From positions 1-36,998 of the forward strand of contig JAGPDB010000019.1 in assembly GCA_018057765.1 (NCBI GenBank): a DNA stretch of 36,998 nt, in the 5' to 3' direction. This DNA comes from Acidimicrobiia bacterium. Lineage in GTDB: Bacteria > Actinomycetota > Acidimicrobiia > IMCC26256 > JAGPDB01. Under the pieces are notes generated by a model that saw only the letters and a program-made list of their open reading frames with translations, did no database searches and was not told the origin of the DNA. The position numbers and the translations under genes were made by a program. Position 1 is the first letter of the stretch, and each line of letters opens with the position of its first letter. Of this stretch, positions 28,740-36,998 are shown piece after piece.

Positions 28740-30095
28740 TCAATCTACTAAATATTTAAGAACAGAATCTATGCTGATACGTTCTTGGTTAGTTGTGTCC
28801 CTATCGCGAATAGTCACACAGCCGTCAACGAGTGAATCAAAGTCGATAGTTATACATTTTGGAGTACCTATTTCATCCTGACGACGATAACGTTTACCGA
28901 TTGACTGTGTTAGATCAATATCTATTTGCATATGAGGACGCAAAATTTCAGCGATTTTATTCGTTAGGGGCATCAATTCTTCTTTTTTAGATAGAGGTAG
29001 TACAGCTGCTTTATACGGAGCCAAATCTTTATGTAGTTTTAAGACTGTTCGTTCTTCACCATTAACCTCATCTATTTCAAATGCATTTAATAGAAATGCT
29101 AAAGTCGCACGCTCGACTCCTAAAGCTGGTTCAATAACATATGGCACGTAGCGTTGATTTGCCTGAGGATCAAAATAAGAGAGATCTTGGCCAGAATGTT
29201 GAGAATGAGCTTTTAAATCGAAATCTGTGCGCTGTGCTATCCCTTCTAGTTCACCCCAACCCCAAGGAAATAAATATTCAATATCACTAGTACCAGTAGA
29301 ATAATGGCTGAGTTCGTCCTCGTCATGCGGTCGAAGCATAATATTTTCTTTTTTCATTCCAAGATTATAAAACCAATCCATCCGCTCATTTTTCCAATAT
29401 TCGTACCACTCTGGTCCTTGTTCTGGTGGCACAAAAAATTCCATCTCCATTTGTTCAAATTCTCGAGTACGAAAAATAAAATTCCCAGGAGTAATTTCGT
29501 TACGAAAACTCTTACCAACTTGAGCAATACCAAATGGTGGTTTTTGACGTGTTGTATTTAAAACGTTCACAAAATTAACAAATATACCTTGTGCTGTCTC
29601 TGGCCTAAAATATGCAACGTTTGCACTATCTTCTACAGGTCCAACAAAAGTTTTAAACATTAGATTGAAATTTTTTGCTTCACCTAAGACACATTGTTTC
29701 TTTTTTTGTTGAGGACACATTGGTGCTATTATATTTCCATCTTCCACTGGAAGTTGATCTTCACGGTATCGTTGATGACATATCGAACACTCTACCAATG
29801 GATCTGTAAATCCTGCTAAATGACCCGAAGCTTCCCAAACTTGGGGAGCCATAAGGATTGATGCATCAATTCCAACAACATTGTCACGCATTTGAACCAT
29901 TGATTTGAACCATGCTTCTTTGACATTACGTTTTAATAGTACACCTACTGGCCCAAAATCCCATGTAGAGCGAAAACCTCCATAAATATCAGACGACGCA
30001 AATACCAACCCTCTTCTTTTACATAAATTAACAATTTGTTCCATCAGGTCACTTTCACCTGTATTTTTATTAGGGCCTTGTGTATTTTGCGTCAT
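28740..30095 (-). CDS. glyS: Glycyl-tRNA synthetase, single-chain class II type
   Basis: A 451-residue homodimeric (alpha2) GlyRS, the type used by Actinobacteria rather than the alpha2beta2 enzyme. Motifs: IYGGFRSTWDFGPVG near the N-terminus, a CSICHQRY...MCPQQKKKQC zinc-like insert, RPETAQGIFVNF, GKSFRNEITPG (motif 2), EFEQMEMEFF and the motif 3 segment IEPALGVERATLA. The C-terminal anticodon-binding domain ends in RERISIDSVLKYL. The ATG is 9 bases behind TAAACT. It follows recO by 42 bases. Confidence 0.97.
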   Translation of the reverse strand: MTQNTQGPNKNTGESDLMEQIVNLCKRRGLVFASSDIYGGFRSTWDFGPVGVLLKRNVKEAWFKSMVQMRDNVVGIDASILMAPQVWEASGHLAGFTDPLVECSICHQRYREDQLPVEDGNIIAPMCPQQKKKQCVLGEAKNFNLMFKTFVGPVEDSANVAYFRPETAQGIFVNFVNVLNTTRQKPPFGIAQVGKSFRNEITPGNFIFRTREFEQMEMEFFVPPEQGPEWYEYWKNERMDWFYNLGMKKENIMLRPHDEDELSHYSTGTSDIEYLFPWGWGELEGIAQRTDFDLKAHSQHSGQDLSYFDPQANQRYVPYVIEPALGVERATLAFLLNAFEIDEVNGEERTVLKLHKDLAPYKAAVLPLSKKEELMPLTNKIAEILRPHMQIDIDLTQSIGKRYRRQDEIGTPKCITIDFDSLVDGCVTIRDRDTTNQERISIDSVLKYLVD

Positions 30096-30104
30096 AGTAG
30101 CAAT

Positions 30105-30110
30105 AGTTTA
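30105..30110 (-). promoter_or_regulatory. -10-like TAAACT before glyS
   Basis: Minus-strand TAAACT, nine bases, then ATG 30095. No Shine-Dalgarno in the gap; leader would be about two bases. Confidence 0.35.
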
Positions 30111-30137
30111 GCCTAATAAAAGCCTCTATTCTTGATA

Positions 30138-30860
30138 TTAAACAAGCATTAGCGACTTTAAATGCTTCCCGGTATGATATTCAATCATTGCTATAGCTAA
30201 AGCCTCAACTTCTTTAGTGGTATTGCTTACTTGGCTTTGAACAACACTTGAAAGACGACCATCAAAAATTGCTTTTATGGTTTCCCTTGTATGCTCAAGT
30301 ACTAATACACATCCAGGGTCTGCACAATCATCACAAAAAAAGCTTCCTTTTTGGATAGAAAAACTATTTAGCTCATTTAGTGACCCACATTTAAAACAAG
30401 TTGTAACACTTGGAGCAAAGCCTTCTAGTGAAAGTACCTTGAATAAAAATGCTCCGCATGTAACACTCGATTTAGACTCATTCATTGCTTTTAATGCGCG
30501 AATAGTCATTAAAGCTAAATCTTCATGAGCTGTATTATCTTCACATAATATATCTACGGCTTCTAACATTCTTTGTGCACTGGAAAATAAATCTAAATTT
30601 TCTCGAATATGCCTATTAGAATTTACCGTTTCAACTTGAGTGATTCGAACTAATTCTGAATTTCCGCAAATCCATTGAAAATCTACAACACTTCCAGGTT
30701 CTAGTCTCGCTGAATATTTAGATCCTGATTTCCTAGCTCCTTTAGCTACACCTCGAATTTTTCCATGACTCGTGGTCAGAAATACGACAATGCGATCTGC
30801 TTCTTTAAGCTTATACGTGCGTAATACCACGCCCACATCACGATTTGTTTGACCTGTCAT
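30138..30860 (-). CDS. recO: DNA repair protein RecO
   Basis: About 240 residues. The N-terminal OB fold begins with RDVGVVLRTYKLKEADRIVVF and contains GKIRGVAKGARKSGSKY. A helical domain follows, then a four-cysteine zinc site (CFKCGS...CDDC). RecO loads RecA on single-stranded DNA with RecR. The frame is open to a GTG at 30920, but the MTGQTNRDVGVV start at ATG 30860 matches where the family normally begins. Neither has a strong ribosome-binding site. The order uppS-recO-glyS is typical of Actinobacteria. Confidence 0.93.
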   Translation of the reverse strand: MTGQTNRDVGVVLRTYKLKEADRIVVFLTTSHGKIRGVAKGARKSGSKYSARLEPGSVVDFQWICGNSELVRITQVETVNSNRHIRENLDLFSSAQRMLEAVDILCEDNTAHEDLALMTIRALKAMNESKSSVTCGAFLFKVLSLEGFAPSVTTCFKCGSLNELNSFSIQKGSFFCDDCADPGCVLVLEHTRETIKAIFDGRLSSVVQSQVSNTTKEVEALAIAMIEYHTGKHLKSLMLV

Positions 30861-30952
30861 AGGGTTATATTCTACTTTGATTAACTCCGTGATTACGTCT
30901 ATACGTGTTCTTATTAACACCCCTGACAGCCATCACGGAAAAGGAGGGGAAA

Positions 30953-31717
30953 TTAGACAGAACCGAAGCGGCGAGTACGGTTTTGAAATTCAATAATTGC
31001 TTCAAAAAGATTCTCTCTGCGCATATCTGGCCATAAAGTATCAGTAAAAATTAGTTCAGCATATGCACCTTGAAATAATAAGAAATTAGATATACGTTTT
31101 TCACCTGATGTTCGAAGGACAAAATCTACATCTGGCATATTAGGAAAATAAAAATTATCACTTAAAATATTTTCATCAATTTTTTCAATTGATAGTTCGC
31201 CATCAATAACTTTTTGCACAATCTTTTTTGTTGCATCTACAACTTCTGCCCTGGAACCATAATTAAATGCAATACATAAAGTCATCCCAGTATTATCTTT
31301 TGTTTTAGCTTGTGCTTCATCCATTCGTTTTATCAATCTAGATGGAATCCGTTTTTCTCTTCTACCCACAAAGATCACACGAATATTATGATCGTGTAAC
31401 TCTCCTAAGCGTTCTACTAATAGCCTTTCATTAAAACCCATTAAATAAGCAACTTCAGCTTTTGGTCGTGACCAGTTCTCAGTAGAAAAAGCATATACAG
31501 TTATATAATTAATACCTAGATCACGTGCGCCATAAATAACATCGTATAAGGCTTGTTCGCCCTGCTCATGGCCTTTTGTACGCGAGAGTCCTTGACTCGT
31601 TGCCCAACGGCCATTTCCATCCATTACTATTGCAATATGGTTCGGCAATCCTTCAATATCGATTTTTGAATCTATACGATCCTTATTCGATTTTTCTACA
31701 ATATGAGGACTATTCAA
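30953..31717 (-). CDS. uppS: Isoprenyl transferase (undecaprenyl diphosphate synthase family)
   Basis: A 254-residue cis-prenyltransferase making the polyprenyl carrier for cell-wall synthesis. The catalytic loop is IAIVMDGNGRWA; TKGHEQG, VYAFSTENW, NYGSRAEV and DFVLRTSGEKRISNFLLFQ follow. The start is the TTG at 31717, because there is no in-frame ATG before the catalytic loop. In this run it follows the cupredoxin gene by 17 bases, so it may be read from the cytochrome oxidase transcript. Confidence 0.95.
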   Translation of the reverse strand: MNSPHIVEKSNKDRIDSKIDIEGLPNHIAIVMDGNGRWATSQGLSRTKGHEQGEQALYDVIYGARDLGINYITVYAFSTENWSRPKAEVAYLMGFNERLLVERLGELHDHNIRVIFVGRREKRIPSRLIKRMDEAQAKTKDNTGMTLCIAFNYGSRAEVVDATKKIVQKVIDGELSIEKIDENILSDNFYFPNMPDVDFVLRTSGEKRISNFLLFQGAYAELIFTDTLWPDMRRENLFEAIIEFQNRTRRFGSV

Positions 31718-31734
31718 TTTCTATTCAATCACTA

Positions 31735-32433
31735 TTATTTTGCGTCAAGGGTTGCTGTCATTGCTTCATGGCCAGGGATAGGACAATAAATGACATATTC
31801 GCCAGGAACTAGATTGACATCTCCTTCAGCTTCAGTACCAGCATTAACAGCTAAATCGAACCAATCAAATTTACCCTTGAATTTCAATTGATGTGATCCA
31901 CCTTTACCAATATATTTGATATGTACAACACCTGCTTTTACCGTGTATGCATTAGTTGAAAATAGATTTGATCCAAGCGCGTCGACTTCAATCGCATTAG
32001 CAGGGTCTGCCGAGGCTATTTCTTCTGCTGTTGGTTGTCCCGCTGCTGGACCCGCTGTTGATTCTTCTCCAGATCCATAAATTATTGCTCCTGATATAAG
32101 CACTGCCAAAACCGTTCCAGCTAAAATAAGTTTAAAAGACATAGGTCGCATTGACTTAGCTAAAGAGATTAATGCTGCACCAACTAAAACGACTACTGTA
32201 ACAATAGTTGCCCAAAAAACTGGATTTGAAGATTTGCTTGCTTCACCAGCTACTGCTACAGCTCCTTCTTCTTCATGCGCACCAGCTAAAAATATTCTTG
32301 AAAAACTAATTCCTAAAAGTGCAACAAGGCCAGCACTTATTAATGGAATAGTAAAAGGTAGATATAAACGCTCTCGAAGATTCTTTTTATTTTCATCTTG
32401 CTCTGATGGATTTTCTTGTATTTCGACCGACAT
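31735..32433 (-). CDS. Membrane-anchored cupredoxin of the cytochrome oxidase cluster
   Basis: A 232-residue protein with three predicted membrane segments in the first 120 residues (about 25-50, 70-92 and 98-118), then a Gly/Ala/Pro-rich linker and a C-terminal cupredoxin domain of about 85 residues. Copper ligands are His181 (GGSHQLKF), Cys217 and His222 (YCPIPGHEAM), with Met225 as axial ligand. The domain should face outside the membrane, where it could pass electrons to, or supply copper for, the CuA site of subunit II. It is last in the cox cluster after CtaG. Ribosome-binding site AAAGGG. Function is inference from position and fold. Confidence 0.8.
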   Translation of the reverse strand: MSVEIQENPSEQDENKKNLRERLYLPFTIPLISAGLVALLGISFSRIFLAGAHEEEGAVAVAGEASKSSNPVFWATIVTVVVLVGAALISLAKSMRPMSFKLILAGTVLAVLISGAIIYGSGEESTAGPAAGQPTAEEIASADPANAIEVDALGSNLFSTNAYTVKAGVVHIKYIGKGGSHQLKFKGKFDWFDLAVNAGTEAEGDVNLVPGEYVIYCPIPGHEAMTATLDAK

Positions 32434-32456
32434 TGTTGTACCCTTTGTTTTTCTAG

Positions 32457-32477
32457 ATCCTAGGCGATGCTTAGGAT
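32457..32477 (-). other. Hairpin between ctaG-like and cupredoxin genes
   Basis: ATCCTAGGC (32457-32465) and GCTTAGGAT (32469-32477) form a 9-base stem with one G-U pair and a 3-base loop. No U run follows on the minus strand, so it is not a classical terminator. It may protect or separate segments of the mRNA. Confidence 0.45.
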
Positions 32478-32483
32478 GACGCT

Positions 32484-33299
32484 CTATAGTTTATTCTCTT
32501 TTTCACTGCTAAATCGTAATTCTCTGTTCTTCTCCTCATTTGACCAAGAAAACCAGATGACTGCTATCATTCCCCAAATTAGCAAACCTTGTCCTATCTT
32601 CATTATTAGTCCAGCAATACGCTGATCATCCAATGCGGAGATACCGAATAATTTAGGAAGCTGAGTATATATTTTATACAAGGGTTTATTGCCTAATGTT
32701 AAGAATGAAGCTGGAATAGTTGGGACAATGGACTGTAAGAATAAAAAGATCATTTGCACTAAAGGTGTAGGTCGTACTATTTCTGGCACTGGTGAAAGTA
32801 TTACCATCCACACGATTATAAATCCTATTACCATCGCAAAATGTGCAAGAAAATGAATCAAACCCGACTGCAAAGTCGCATCTACAAAGGCTGGCCAATG
32901 AAATAAGATGATTAGCAAATTAAAGATGATTGTTGCAGGAAGAAAACGAACACAATACCTCATCACTCCAAGTAGATATTTTCTTACAAAAATATATCTT
33001 GCTAACCATGAAGGCACAGAAAATATTATGAATATAGCCATTAAGTTGATAAATGCTAAATGTTGAAGCATATGTATAAAGTACATAGATTTTTCGCTAA
33101 CATCATGTACTGGCCATGTTGAGCCTACAACGAAAGTTACAATTGCGCATATATGGTTTATTAACTGGAATTTAGATGGACGTGTTTCTCTTCCTAATTT
33201 AGGAGCTAAGCGTATAAATGCAATTGCATATACAAGACACCAAATGGCAGCGATTAAATATACATCTATGTGCGACTCAAAAGGAGGTAGGTTATACAT
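32484..33299 (-). CDS. ctaG: CtaG-like cytochrome c oxidase assembly protein (caa3 type)
   Basis: A 271-residue membrane protein with about seven hydrophobic segments. Family features: HMLQHLAFINLMAIF (histidines for copper handling), NLLIILFHWPAFVDATLQ, LIHFLAHFAMV and the DDQRIAGLIMKIGQGL region near the C-terminus. The caa3_CtaG family is needed for maturation of caa3-type oxidase. Its place right after subunit IV and before the cupredoxin supports the call. The start codon lies 10 bases after the subunit IV gene. Confidence 0.88.
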   Translation of the reverse strand: MYNLPPFESHIDVYLIAAIWCLVYAIAFIRLAPKLGRETRPSKFQLINHICAIVTFVVGSTWPVHDVSEKSMYFIHMLQHLAFINLMAIFIIFSVPSWLARYIFVRKYLLGVMRYCVRFLPATIIFNLLIILFHWPAFVDATLQSGLIHFLAHFAMVIGFIIVWMVILSPVPEIVRPTPLVQMIFLFLQSIVPTIPASFLTLGNKPLYKIYTQLPKLFGISALDDQRIAGLIMKIGQGLLIWGMIAVIWFSWSNEEKNRELRFSSEKENKL

Positions 33300-33309
33300 C
33301 TAAATAAAT

Positions 33310-33636
33310 TTAGAAAAAACGATGATCTTGTATTGATAATGAGACGAGCACAGCAGCAAATAATGTAAGAGCTGTAAGCCCACCTAGAATAAACCATCTT
33401 TTATATACTTTTGCATCATCTTTAAGATGCATAAAGAATGCAGCGACCAAAAAGAACTTTATTGCTGCCACTCCATATAGTCCTACCATCAATATACCTC
33501 TATTTATATGTCTTTCCATATAATACAATGAGATTTCCATTGCAGTAAGCCCTACTAATACTCCACCAACTAATACATATTGAGCTGGGGATGTGTGCTC
33601 TTTTTGAACTGTACTTTGAATTTGAGATTCAGACAT
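33310..33636 (-). CDS. Cytochrome c oxidase subunit IV
   Basis: A 108-residue protein with three membrane segments and the prokaryotic COX4 signature KFFLVAAFFMHLKDDAKVYK. The small subunit stabilises the oxidase. Strong ribosome-binding site (AAAAGGAAACTA). It begins 10 bases after subunit III. Confidence 0.88.
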   Translation of the reverse strand: MSESQIQSTVQKEHTSPAQYVLVGGVLVGLTAMEISLYYMERHINRGILMVGLYGVAAIKFFLVAAFFMHLKDDAKVYKRWFILGGLTALTLFAAVLVSLSIQDHRFF

Positions 33637-33646
33637 TAGTTTCCTT

Positions 33647-34351
33647 TTAATTAACTGGGGTTAAGTAGATAATAGTAAAAATTACAATCCAGATAACATC
33701 AACAAAGTGCCAATATAGACCAGCAATTTCTACTCGTTCAGCTTGTTCTTTATTTAATTTACCCTGAAAAGATAAACTCAATAATGACAATAACCAGAAA
33801 ATACCTAATGCTACGTGAGCACCATGTAGACCTGTCAGAACAAAGAATGTAGAACCAGATTGGTTAGTTGTTAAGGTAAAACCTTCTCTAGCGAATTGTG
33901 TAAATTCATAAATTTGACCACCTAAGAATATAGTACCAAATAATACTGTTGAACTTAACCAAACTCGAGATCTCCTAATGTCCCCTCTTTTTATAGCTGC
34001 TAAAGATAAAACCATCGTTAACGAACTCATCAACAAAATAAATGAAGTTGCAGATGTAAATGGAATATCTACGACATCAGAAAGCACTTTTGCAGAATTT
34101 CCTGTTAGCTTTAAAGCGCTATCTACTAGTTCTAAATTTCTACCTCGATATAATAAATATGCAGAAATAAAACCACCGAAAAACAAGAAGTCAGAAGATA
34201 AGAATATCCACATTGCCAATTTTCCATTAGTTGGTCTAACCCTAGTTGATGTCACATCATTTTGTTCTAAAGCTAAATCTCCAACAATATCTGATTCATT
34301 GGCATAATCAGCCTCATCTGTTGAGATTTTATTCTTTTCTATTTCACGCAT
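33647..34351 (-). CDS. ctaE: Cytochrome c oxidase subunit III
   Basis: A 234-residue membrane protein. A polar N-terminus of about 45 residues precedes five or more membrane segments with family motifs LAMWIFLSSDFLFFGGFISAYLLYR, VLTGLHGAHVALGIFW and GLYWHFVDVIWIVIF. The ATG shares one base with the subunit I stop (TAATG), so translation is probably coupled. Confidence 0.95.
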   Translation of the reverse strand: MREIEKNKISTDEADYANESDIVGDLALEQNDVTSTRVRPTNGKLAMWIFLSSDFLFFGGFISAYLLYRGRNLELVDSALKLTGNSAKVLSDVVDIPFTSATSFILLMSSLTMVLSLAAIKRGDIRRSRVWLSSTVLFGTIFLGGQIYEFTQFAREGFTLTTNQSGSTFFVLTGLHGAHVALGIFWLLSLLSLSFQGKLNKEQAERVEIAGLYWHFVDVIWIVIFTIIYLTPVN

Positions 34352-36333
34352 TATTTAACTCCTACATGTGATTCTTCATCTTTATGATGTGCATGTGGTT
34401 CTGCATCTGGTTCTAATGACCATCCGAGCAAAGAAAATGCGAATACAAATACACCTAATCCACAAAGGAACCAATTATGAAATACAAGTCCATAACCAGC
34501 AATTGGAAGCGCTAGACCTAAAATTAAAGGCCAAAACGACGGTGAAGGTAAATGGACACCATATTTTTCAATTGCCTCTTGTGTAGTTACACGAATTGGC
34601 TCTTTAGTTATATCTACGCCTTCACGTAACATTAACCTACCATCAGCATCCTCAGTATATTTACGGTGCCAAAAATCGTCAACTGCTTCAACATGAGGAA
34701 CTTCTAAAAAGTTATATTCAGGAACAGGTGAAGGTATCGACCATTCAAGCGTACGAGCATCCCATGGGTCAGCTCCAGCCACCTCGCCTTTGAATTTTGA
34801 CCTAATAATATTATAAACAAACATTAAAGTAGCAGTTGCAATTGTAAATGCACCAATAGTTGCAACCTTATTCCAGGTTTCAAGTTGTAAGTCTTCTTGA
34901 TATCTCCATGTTCTACGAGCTTGACCAGCTAAACCTAAAAGGTGCATAGGACCAAAAGTAAAATTGAATCCAATTAATACAAGCCAAAATGTATACTTCC
35001 CTAATTTATCGTTCATCATTCTACCGAACATTTTTGGAAACCAATAATGAATTCCACCAAAGATAGCGAACACCAATCCACCAAATAATACATAATGAAA
35101 ATGAGCAATAATAAAGTAAGTATCAGTTTGTTGTGTGTCAGCTGGAACAACAGCATGCATCACTCCTGATAAGCCGCCAATTGTAAACATCGCAATAAAA
35201 CCAATGCTGTACAACATGGGAGAATTAAACCTTAATGAACCACCCCAAAGTGTGCCTAGCCAGTTAAATATTTTCACACCAGTGGGAACACCTACCATCA
35301 TTGTCGCAACACCGAAAGCGGAAATAGTCACCGGACCTAATCCTGTTGCAAACATATGGTGAGCCCATACTCCCCAACCAACAAAACCAATTGCTATACC
35401 TGAGAATACAACAACACTATGTCCAAATAATGGTTTTCGCGCGAACACCGGCAATATTTCTGAAACGATACCCATCCCAGGAAGTATCAAAATATATACT
35501 TCAGGGTGGCCAAATATCCAAAACATATGTTGATATAAAAGAGGATCTCCACCTGTTGCGGCAAAGAAAAAGTTGGTATCAAAATTCCTGTCAAAAAATA
35601 CCATGATTAGTGCTGCGGTAAATACGGGTAGAGCAAAAGCTGTCATAAATGATGTTACTAATATCATCCAAGTCACAATTGGCATACGCATTAATTTCAT
35701 ACCAGGCGCACGCATATTAATTGTTGTTACTATAAAGTTGATTGCAGAAGTTGTTGACCCAATACCAAGCATGATTAGTCCAACTGCCCAGAAATCAGCT
35801 CCTCTTCCTGGCAAAATTCCAGAAGAATAAGGAGATGAAGTTAGTGGTGTATATCCGAACCACCCACCGTTTGGAGCACCACCCATAAAGAAACTCGAAT
35901 ACATAAAGATTCCACCAAAAAGTAGTATCCAATATCCGAGCGCATTTAATCTTGGGAATGCAACGTCACGTGCACCAATTTGAAGTGGTATTAAGTAATT
36001 CCCAAATGCAGCAGCCAATGGCATTCCCACTAAGAAAATCATGGTTGTACCATGCATTGTAAACATTTGATTATATTGAGCTGCAGTAAGTACCGAACTA
36101 TTTGGTGAGAACAATTGCATACGAATTAGAAGTGCCTCAACACCACCAAATAAAAAGAAGAATAAAGCTGTTGCAATATAAAGCAGGGCAATTCGTTTGT
36201 GATCAACGCTAGTAAACCAAGATCCTAAACCTCTTGTTTTTGTTGGACGTTTAATCAACGTGGCTATACGCGTTTCAGCTTTAGTTTCAATACTGCTTTT
36301 TGTATTGATATTGCTCGGAGTAGCAGTTGTCAT
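34351..36333 (-). CDS. ctaD: Cytochrome c oxidase subunit I (A-type haem-copper oxidase)
   Basis: A 660-residue catalytic subunit with 12 core membrane helices and a hydrophilic plus two-helix C-terminal extension. Landmarks: FTMHGTTMIFLVGMP (haem a ligand), the D-channel entry NYLIPLQIGARDVAFPRLN, the CuB and crosslinked-Tyr motif FGHPEVYILILPG with the A1-type Glu, HHMFATGLG and TYFIIAHFHYVLFGG (haem ligands). It reduces O2 to water and pumps protons. It follows subunit II by 20 bases and leads the run III-IV-CtaG-cupredoxin. Confidence 0.97.
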   Translation of the reverse strand: MTTATPSNINTKSSIETKAETRIATLIKRPTKTRGLGSWFTSVDHKRIALLYIATALFFFLFGGVEALLIRMQLFSPNSSVLTAAQYNQMFTMHGTTMIFLVGMPLAAAFGNYLIPLQIGARDVAFPRLNALGYWILLFGGIFMYSSFFMGGAPNGGWFGYTPLTSSPYSSGILPGRGADFWAVGLIMLGIGSTTSAINFIVTTINMRAPGMKLMRMPIVTWMILVTSFMTAFALPVFTAALIMVFFDRNFDTNFFFAATGGDPLLYQHMFWIFGHPEVYILILPGMGIVSEILPVFARKPLFGHSVVVFSGIAIGFVGWGVWAHHMFATGLGPVTISAFGVATMMVGVPTGVKIFNWLGTLWGGSLRFNSPMLYSIGFIAMFTIGGLSGVMHAVVPADTQQTDTYFIIAHFHYVLFGGLVFAIFGGIHYWFPKMFGRMMNDKLGKYTFWLVLIGFNFTFGPMHLLGLAGQARRTWRYQEDLQLETWNKVATIGAFTIATATLMFVYNIIRSKFKGEVAGADPWDARTLEWSIPSPVPEYNFLEVPHVEAVDDFWHRKYTEDADGRLMLREGVDITKEPIRVTTQEAIEKYGVHLPSPSFWPLILGLALPIAGYGLVFHNWFLCGLGVFVFAFSLLGWSLEPDAEPHAHHKDEESHVGVK

Positions 36334-36353
36334 AATATTCTATTCCTTAGTTC

Positions 36354-36998
36354 TTATTTATTTGCGCTCAAATATTGAGCTATAGATTTTGCTTCTTCTT
36401 CGGTCATTGCGGGTAAATTAGTTTCTTTTCCAGTATCATCTACTGATTTATAAACAACAGAAAAGTTTGGCATACCTACACAACGTTTTCCTTCACCAGG
36501 GACTGGACCTAAACGACAATCGTCTGCCTGCATTGGAATACCATTTTGATTTTTCCAATCCGTTGCATTATGAATCCATTTCCAAATGTGTTCTTGTGTT
36601 TTATCAATAGATCCACCACCCATTACTTCATTATCAAAATCGCTTCCAAAGTGAGTTAGATTCGGACCATAAGATTTCGAGCTCGGATCATCAAATGAAT
36701 GACAATTTGCACAACCAAATTTAAGAATTGAACGCTTTGCTTCTACTGTTTTGACATCACAAGAATTTGCTTGTCCAGCTGCATCGAAACATACATTTAC
36801 AGGCGGCTTTTTAAGATTATCGAGCCATTTATCATAGTCTGCCTGAGTTACAGCTCGAACTTGCATACGCATAAGGCTATGTGACAGTCCACAAAATTCT
36901 GCACACTGGCCTGTATATAGTCCGGGTTTATCAGCCTCTAATACAAGAGTGTTAGTTCGTCCCGGGACAACATCTTTTTTACCACCCAATGAAGGTAT
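36354..36998 (-). CDS. ctaC: Cytochrome c oxidase subunit II fused to cytochrome c (caa3), C-terminal part
   Basis: The frame is open to the window edge (last visible codon at 36998), so the N-terminal membrane anchors lie outside. The CuA domain ends in GLYTGQCAEFCGLSHSLMRM with its two Cys, His and Met ligands. A cytochrome c domain follows with the haem-binding FGCANCHSF and a likely axial Met in VGMPNFS. Fusion of cytochrome c to subunit II defines the caa3 form, in which the enzyme carries its own electron entry. Two further cysteine pairs (VCFDAAGQANSCD and DDCRLGPVPGEGKRC) are probably disulphides. It is first in the visible cox cluster. Confidence 0.95.
   Translation of the reverse strand: MPSLGGKKDVVPGRTNTLVLEADKPGLYTGQCAEFCGLSHSLMRMQVRAVTQADYDKWLDNLKKPPVNVCFDAAGQANSCDVKTVEAKRSILKFGCANCHSFDDPSSKSYGPNLTHFGSDFDNEVMGGGSIDKTQEHIWKWIHNATDWKNQNGIPMQADDCRLGPVPGEGKRCVGMPNFSVVYKSVDDTGKETNLPAMTEEEAKSIAQYLSANK

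Follow-up and report, generated by a model that had tools for sequence, protein, structure and literature searches.

A membrane-anchored cupredoxin encoded at the end of caa3-type oxidase operons in Actinomycetota: a possible tethered electron relay

What does the last gene of a caa3-type cytochrome c oxidase cluster encode, and what might its product do for the oxidase? The window, i.e., the whole stretch of DNA analyzed here (36,998 nucleotides from an Acidimicrobiia bacterium), contains an open reading frame that runs from ATG to stop at exactly positions 31735 to 32433 of the minus strand, as checked in the letters. We call its product CupTM. An earlier note, made from the sequence alone, had proposed that CupTM closes the oxidase cluster directly after CtaG, and this proved correct. 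In order of transcription, the genes are coxII, coxI, coxIII, coxIV, ctaG, and the CupTM gene, followed by uppS and recO. The CupTM start lies 50 bases past the ctaG stop, and the CupTM stop lies 17 bases ahead of uppS. The features of the cluster and of CupTM are as follows.

36354..36998, minus strand: coxII, C-terminal part, with the CuA motif CAEFCGLSHSLM and a fused cytochrome c (CANCH); the gene is cut off where the contig ends
34351..36333, minus strand: coxI, heme and CuB histidine motifs present (PF00115, E 4e-159)
33647..34351, minus strand: coxIII (PF00510, E 3e-18)
33310..33636, minus strand: coxIV, subunit IV, COX4_pro (PF03626, E 4e-10)
32484..33299, minus strand: ctaG, Caa3_CtaG assembly factor (PF09678, E 4e-31)
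31735..32433, minus strand: CupTM, three-helix membrane protein plus C-terminal cupredoxin; 232-amino-acid open reading frame, final gene of the oxidase cluster
32068..32370, minus strand: three-transmembrane module of CupTM, residues about 22 to 122, with the conserved S45-R46 motif (hydropathy, AlphaFold2 helices, profile A3)
31738..31998, minus strand: cupredoxin domain of CupTM, residues about 146 to 232 (model strands from 147, Foldseek, profile match)
31891..31893, minus strand: copper ligand His181, invariant in 32/32 rows of alignment A1
31783..31785, minus strand: copper ligand Cys217, invariant in 32/32 (A1)
31768..31770, minus strand: copper ligand His222, invariant in 32/32 (A1)
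31759..31761, minus strand: axial ligand Met225 in a shortened H-x2-M loop, invariant in 32/32 (A1)
30953..31717, minus strand: uppS, the first gene past the cluster and a conserved neighbor outside the system (PF01255, synteny)

The N-terminal part of coxII is found on another contig of the same genome (G000:C32, locus L263), and the two pieces probably join, since their overlap is closely similar, if not identical. The C-terminal extension of CoxI resembles Cyt_c_ox_IV (PF12270) with an E value of 2e-5 and 24.9 bits, just below the cutoff of 26.9. The Bacillus subtilis cta locus likewise holds caa3-type oxidase genes with caa3_CtaG; as described in passages of PMC9145763, that locus ends with ctaG, whereas the window cluster has one gene more. 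The glyS-recO-uppS block beside the oxidase operon (window positions 28740 to 36998) is conserved in many loci of the taxonomic order to which the window belongs. In 14 of 38 loci of this order (L033, L035 to L040, L042 to L044, L046, L049, L051, and L065), the next recognized gene encodes a second cupredoxin, by eye a secreted lipoprotein. The window genome has none of these lipoprotein cupredoxins at this place and two elsewhere, at L246:119-538 (near a contig start) and L247:8171-8662.

The earlier note had read CupTM as three membrane helices followed by a cupredoxin, and our results agree with it. Hydropathy gives hydrophobic stretches at about residues 22 to 52, 68 to 96, and 97 to 122. 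The AlphaFold2 model (mean pLDDT, 83.4; pTM, 0.54) places long helices at residues 9 to 51, 70 to 94, and 97 to 120 and then a beta domain whose pLDDT is 94 to 98 per ten-residue block. With Foldseek, the top PDB hits are cupredoxins and subunit II chains that bear CuA (E about 3e-7); together, model and Foldseek assign CupTM the fold of type 1 (blue) copper cupredoxins. A profile of 32 CupTM relatives also matches nitrite reductase, plastocyanin, and auracyanin chains. The loop after helix 1 has four acidic residues and one basic residue, and the stretch after helix 3 has five acidic residues and no basic ones. Between helices 2 and 3 there is a basic residue and no acidic ones, and four basic residues lie just ahead of helix 1; the N-terminus as a whole holds six acidic residues. 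This charge pattern suggests that the N-terminus is inside and the copper domain outside, on the side of CuA.

The copper site was read from alignment A1, whose 32 rows were picked by eye and represent only part of the loci. The residues that the earlier note had named as copper ligands, His181, Cys217, His222, and Met225, are indeed H, C, H, and M and do not vary in these 32 relatives; they make up the His, Cys, His, and Met ligand set of type 1 copper cupredoxins. Besides the ligands, M1, S45, G115, G168, G211, and G221 are invariant in A1, and R46 is conserved in at least 90%. Because CupTM has 53% and 48% identity to its counterparts in two congeners and its four ligands are invariant, we regard the protein as real beyond chance. 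The cupredoxin domain is predicted to hold one type 1 copper. Both congeners have a His-Met spacing two residues longer than that of CupTM (HEAM, 31759 to 31770). Most rows show a spacing of four residues; the window, L056, and L069 have two, and L053 and L063 have three. In a distant class, Cys-x2-His takes the place of Cys-x4-His (43 versus 57 among the 100 ligand-bearing loci out of 116 module loci). According to passages of PMC4059628, blue and red cupredoxins have loops of 2 to 4 residues, so both the C-x4-H of CupTM and the C-x2-H found elsewhere fit this range, which we count in favor of an electron relay. Longer versions with two cupredoxins in tandem also occur (L060:9560-10489, L114, L117, L122, L129, and L133).

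The earlier note knew of no named family with this architecture, and scans of Pfam and NCBIfam bore this out, as neither has a family of its own for the three-helix module. Among Pfam cupredoxin families, CupTM matched only SoxE (E 0.1; 12.5 bits versus a cutoff of 21), and no NCBIfam cupredoxin model matched it at E up to 1; it thus passes the curated cutoff of no named cupredoxin family. Matches to MerT, DUF3995, DUF6264, PTS IID, and fumarate hydratase were set aside as chance, being far below their cutoffs or at E above 0.001. At E up to 0.01, 22 of the 32 members matched Copper-bind (PF00127), and 14, 11, and 7 of the 32 matched the NCBIfam plastocyanin, rusticyanin, and sulfocyanin models, respectively; the distant member L114 matched amicyanin with 56.7 bits against a cutoff of 110. 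The plastocyanin, rusticyanin, sulfocyanin, and amicyanin proteins, which are mostly soluble or single-anchor carriers, have the cupredoxin fold and the complete type 1 ligand set in common with the CupTM family. Unlike them, CupTM has a conserved three-helix module ahead of the domain.

AcoP (acidophile cytochrome c oxidase partner) of Acidithiobacillus ferrooxidans is, like CupTM, a cupredoxin of one domain that is anchored in the membrane and has its gene in an oxidase operon, and the cup gene of the rus operon is presumably AcoP. The rus operon also holds rusticyanin and the cyc genes of the iron pathway, as given in passages of PMC10654088. Both AcoP and CupTM have Cys, two His, and Met as ligands, and the passages on AcoP describe it as tightly bound to and copurifying with the oxidase and as taking electrons from cytochrome c4 (PMC5982212, PMC4059628). 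However, AcoP has one N-terminal helix and CupTM has three, and the AcoP loop, Cys-x6-His-x4-Met in the passages of PMC4059628, differs from C217-x4-H222-x2-M225 of CupTM. By analogy, CupTM would be AcoP-like in its working principle, but by helix number and ligand loop it is not a member of the AcoP family. The Figure 1 legend of PMC8239418, crediting Degli Esposti 2020, places membrane-bound cupredoxins in an iron oxidizer's oxidase chain, and therefore the general idea of such proteins is already known. In the literature on oxidase cupredoxins of Acidimicrobiia and actinobacteria and on caa3 blue copper, we found no three-helix, caa3-linked form, which Degli Esposti 2020 may mention.

How widely is this gene tied to the oxidase? 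A search of the genome contigs with the single CupTM protein found no relative, and a search with profile A2 gave 117 matches, with 22 carrying the module among the best 80 of the 117. These 22 are labeled Acidimicrobiia, Actinomycetes, Actinobacteria, Actinomycetota, or uncultured actinobacterium, and several overlap the other sets. In the 61 genomes of the window and its relatives, CupTM was matched in 57 at E up to 0.001; some of these matches are other cupredoxins, and several of the best matches do not start until residue 66, 102, 105, or 144. Because the whole-protein search picked up such proteins, the family counts rest on profile A3, which covers the three-helix part alone (54 rows chosen from 99). 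Of 346 Actinomycetota genomes, each at least 90% complete, A3 matched 97 at E up to 0.001. With the same settings COX2 was found in 196 of the 346, divided as 96 of the 97 module genomes versus 100 of the 249 others. The sole module genome lacking COX2 (G220) has a marginal, unlinked match (E 8e-4), so the module is in effect absent where the oxidase is absent.

In 65 of the 97 genomes, ctaG or coxIV is the nearest recognized gene upstream of the module, on its own strand, which extends the position beside ctaG well past the window. The 65 include the window itself and also G084, in which a contig end interrupts the gene and its place was judged by eye; another piece in G084, at a different contig end (L315), may be the other half of that gene. 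In 24 of the 97, the module follows a divergent coxIII-like gene and precedes coxII (in G125 the contig ends before coxII), and in 7 it lies on the opposite strand, facing the operon end (in G233 about 2 kb off). Genes of the latter kind (L269 to L271, L276, L277, L280, and L313) encode several helices with a weak three-helix match. Second matches in G066 (L101, at a contig end), G084, and G090 fall outside this count; the one in G090 (L314, E 2e-4) has no oxidase gene in the stretch examined. In another set of 99 loci, 38 of the window's taxonomic order and 61 beyond it, which overlaps the 97-genome set, an oxidase gene is next upstream on the same strand in 98 and the 99th lies at a contig end; four of these 98 upstream genes are the coxIII-like gene of a second cluster described below. 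Here, "recognized" means matched by the eleven or twelve profiles used, and small unrelated genes may intervene. These loci were found via the module and thus show where it lies, not how often caa3 clusters lack it.

The oxidase concerned is of the caa3 type. The earlier note had seen a cytochrome c fused to subunit II in the window, and this extends to the relatives: of the 98 subunit II proteins encoded at module loci, 95 carry a CuA motif and then CxxCH, and the three exceptions, as read, are one frame-broken gene (L062) and two from another oxidase on the same stretch (L133 and L239). A family spread widely away from any oxidase, which would have spoken against the earlier note, is not what these genomes contain, and the copper ligands, whose lack of conservation would equally have spoken against it, are conserved. 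The architecture, ligands, and operon position of CupTM and its near-exclusive occurrence with subunit II are thus direct results of the computation. Given the positions in the module census and the co-occurrence with COX2, we consider CupTM a component of caa3-type oxidase clusters that has so far gone without a name. Conserved in place across many related bacteria, it is probably an additional part of the oxidase that has been overlooked.

Next, we consider where the copper site is kept. The full H...C...H...M set is present in 58 of 63 mapped operon-terminal copies. As read, the five exceptions are L240, which is copper-free, L242 and L301, which are cut by contig ends, and L307 and L310, which are frame-broken. 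L240 (L240:2956-3342) encodes a 129-amino-acid protein that is the three-helix module alone, directly after ctaG, and its genome (G066) carries a second, copper-bearing module copy at a contig end (L101). The site is kept in only 2 of the 24 second-cluster copies and in none of the 7 facing genes. A copper-free module therefore persists in 29 genomes, 22 with the second-cluster gene set and 7 with the facing gene, and because of this the three-helix part does more than tether the copper domain, a point that the earlier note had not foreseen. In several f20 members the C-terminal domain has about 150 residues and no ligands and is perhaps a degenerate cupredoxin.

The second cluster lies outside the window, in families f20, f24, f28 to f31, f33, and f95 of the same class. 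Just upstream of normal caa3 genes, before coxII, it holds a CoxI paralog (CoxI'), a CoxIII-like gene (CoxIII'), and the module. Of 23 CoxI' candidates, one (L061) was dropped as a fragment of a broken normal CoxI, which left 22 readable; for two of the 24 second clusters (L288 and L296), the stretch examined contains no full CoxI'.

CoxI' loci: L119, L120, L135, L136, L265 to L268, L278, L285 to L287, L289 to L295, L297 to L299

The CuB histidine 276 is replaced in all 22, none of which has a complete set of three CuB histidines; the set of three heme histidines is complete only in L119 and L120. Every ligand is kept in 124 of 124 normal CoxI proteins, chosen as scoring above 800 bits; for the most divergent CoxI' (L136, 67 bits), the positions are aligned with less certainty. 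L119 and L120 are also the only second-cluster loci whose module has the copper site, and their CuB ligands are gone. Judged by these residues, copper follows the hemes in the second clusters. In a FastTree tree of 52 sequences, CoxI' is parted from CoxI by one long branch, with L119 and L120 nearest to CoxI; the tree is taken as unrooted, since midpoint rooting splits the clan and the monophyly check is then False. The N-terminal half of the second-cluster module protein is similar to the C-terminal extension of CoxI (hhalign probability, 93; E 3e-7; 43 columns), and 1 of 9 such proteins matched PF12270 (E 0.0013, below the cutoff). The CoxI' proteins of L119, L120, and L135 end near profile position 537 to 539 and so have no C-terminal extension of their own. 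Fusion of the module to a stretch like the CoxI extension is what one would expect of a part that packs against subunit I, and we count it in favor of a relay subunit. CoxI' itself is likely a pseudo-oxidase. We found no description in the literature of a CoxI paralog lacking active-site ligands, and this side finding may be stronger than the main one.

The earlier note had left open whether CupTM is a second electron carrier or a copper chaperone, and our evidence is split between the two, so that both readings survive. The reading that we favor, at a probability of roughly 0.48, is that CupTM is a tethered electron-transfer subunit of the caa3-type oxidase that works much as AcoP does. The three helices would dock CupTM to the oxidase core in the membrane, and the cupredoxin on the outer face, with its one type 1 copper, would act as a tethered one-electron relay. 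CupTM would thus associate physically with the oxidase, be loaded with copper, and pass electrons to the CuA and fused cytochrome c end of subunit II, as a second entry port beside the heme route. In favor of this reading are the complete set of type 1 ligands, the gene's location in the operon, the retention of copper together with the hemes but not with CuB, and the AcoP precedent. Several results count against it. The window genome has a bc-type complex III at L284:3529-9573 (G000 contig C2), comprising a split cytochrome b, a Rieske protein, a ferredoxin-like protein, and a 669-amino-acid membrane protein with two CxxCH motifs; together with the cytochrome c fused to subunit II, this complex provides an all-heme route, and the CupTM relay, if real, would therefore be additional. 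(This complex III lies close to genes that by eye resemble NADH dehydrogenase subunits, and NrfD, expected for alternative complex III, had no match in the window genome.) The 100 COX2 genomes in which no module was detected mean that a CuA oxidase needs no module in general. Coevolution of CupTM and CoxI distances beyond the genomic background is weak (mirror tree, 22 loci; partial r 0.19, permutation P of 0.11; CtaG, 0.23 and P of 0.02; CoxIII, 0.04 and P of 0.36). Finally, the joint loss of hemes and copper in the second cluster is probably a single evolutionary event.

The main alternative, which we hold to be possible but less probable than the relay, is a copper-loading factor: the tethered cupredoxin would take up or store copper on the outer side of the membrane and assist in building CuA, or CuB via CtaG, in place of Sco and PCuAC. 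Sco and PCuAC are, like CupTM, extracytoplasmic copper proteins, and both serve subunit II; PCuAC shares a cupredoxin-like fold with CupTM and binds copper by His and Met, and Sco has a thioredoxin fold with CxxxC (passages of PMC9145763). Neither has the anchor or ligand set of CupTM, and the complete Cys-His-His-Met site of CupTM, as opposed to the His and Met of PCuAC, is typical of electron carriers. The models PF02630 and PF04314 did not match CupTM (Pfam scan, E up to 1) or anything in the window genome (E up to 0.001), and so this genome, which is 97% complete, has no Sco or PCuAC match while its subunit II keeps the CuA motif. In the window genome and its relatives, Sco and PCuAC exceed the cutoff in only 15 and 13 of 61 genomes, respectively. 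Over the 346 genomes, Sco was found in 120 (97 over the cutoff), of which we used the 86 at E below 1e-8, our own threshold for dropping weak thioredoxin-like matches; PCuAC was found in 77 with the A3 settings. Neither is present in 56 of 96 module genomes, and either is present in 40 of the 96 versus 65 of the 100 COX2 genomes lacking the module (P of 0.0016). When module genomes are divided by copper site, a split chosen after the undivided data had been seen, both are missing in 42 of 61 copper-bearing genomes versus 10 of 29 copper-free ones (Fisher P of 0.003) and 35 of 100 COX2 genomes lacking the module (P of 4e-5); G066, G084, G140, G170, G220, G271, and G413, being ambiguous, were left out of the copper-bearing groups. 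By family, the mean fraction lacking both is 0.81 (15 families) versus 0.43 (31 families; Mann-Whitney P of 0.0055), with five ambiguous genomes left out, G066 counted as copper-bearing, and G220 dropped for lack of COX2. This enrichment of copper-bearing modules where both proteins are missing counts against the relay and favors copper loading; the position of the CupTM gene after the assembly gene ctaG also favors loading.

Yet these tests treat genomes or families as independent and ignore deeper phylogeny, and neither protein differs when taken alone (Sco, 38 of 96 with the module versus 47 of 100 without; PCuAC, 37 of 96 versus 39 of 100). Sco and PCuAC together are even commoner with the module (35 of 96 versus 21 of 100; P of 0.018), 10 of 12 copper-bearing genomes of family f42 have one or both, and COX2 is retained in 10 copper-free-module genomes and 35 module-less genomes that have neither. 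A simple replacement scheme, in which the CupTM-less genomes G029, G052, G059, and G060 all had Sco and PCuAC, was dropped when A3 found the module in G059. The copper-free modules and the stand-alone protein of L240 would also suit a mainly structural subunit, in which the copper domain is secondary to a three-helix module that stabilizes the oxidase core; with the site kept in 58 of the 63 operon-terminal copies and only one of the five exceptions clearly copper-free, we think this unlikely. Least probable is a general copper stress or copper resistance cupredoxin of the CopI kind that merely sits beside the oxidase. In its favor, the NCBIfam CopI model finds eight of the 32 members at E up to 0.01, the window protein not among them; against it, the module is in or beside the oxidase operon in 96 of the 97 module genomes.

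Taken together, these results lead us to a tentative picture that we hold with less assurance than the relay itself. Deep-branching Actinomycetota would have an undescribed caa3 subunit that joins a three-helix module to a blue-copper domain and serves as a second electron entry or as a built-in CuA loader making Sco and PCuAC dispensable. Sister lineages would have recruited the module to a duplicated CoxI-CoxIII core that lost its CuB ligands and then its heme ligands and became a heme-free pseudo-oxidase; the copper site would have been lost with the hemes, leaving what is presumably a structural partner of the true oxidase. If real, the ligand-less CoxI paralog is a natural case of a respiratory enzyme turned scaffold. 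If CupTM transfers electrons, the caa3 oxidase of many environmental Actinomycetota can be entered through copper as well as through its heme port. If it loads copper instead, it may explain how CuA is built in genomes that have subunit II and neither Sco nor PCuAC, which is an open question in oxidase assembly. On either reading, a widespread gene with no family name gains a testable role.
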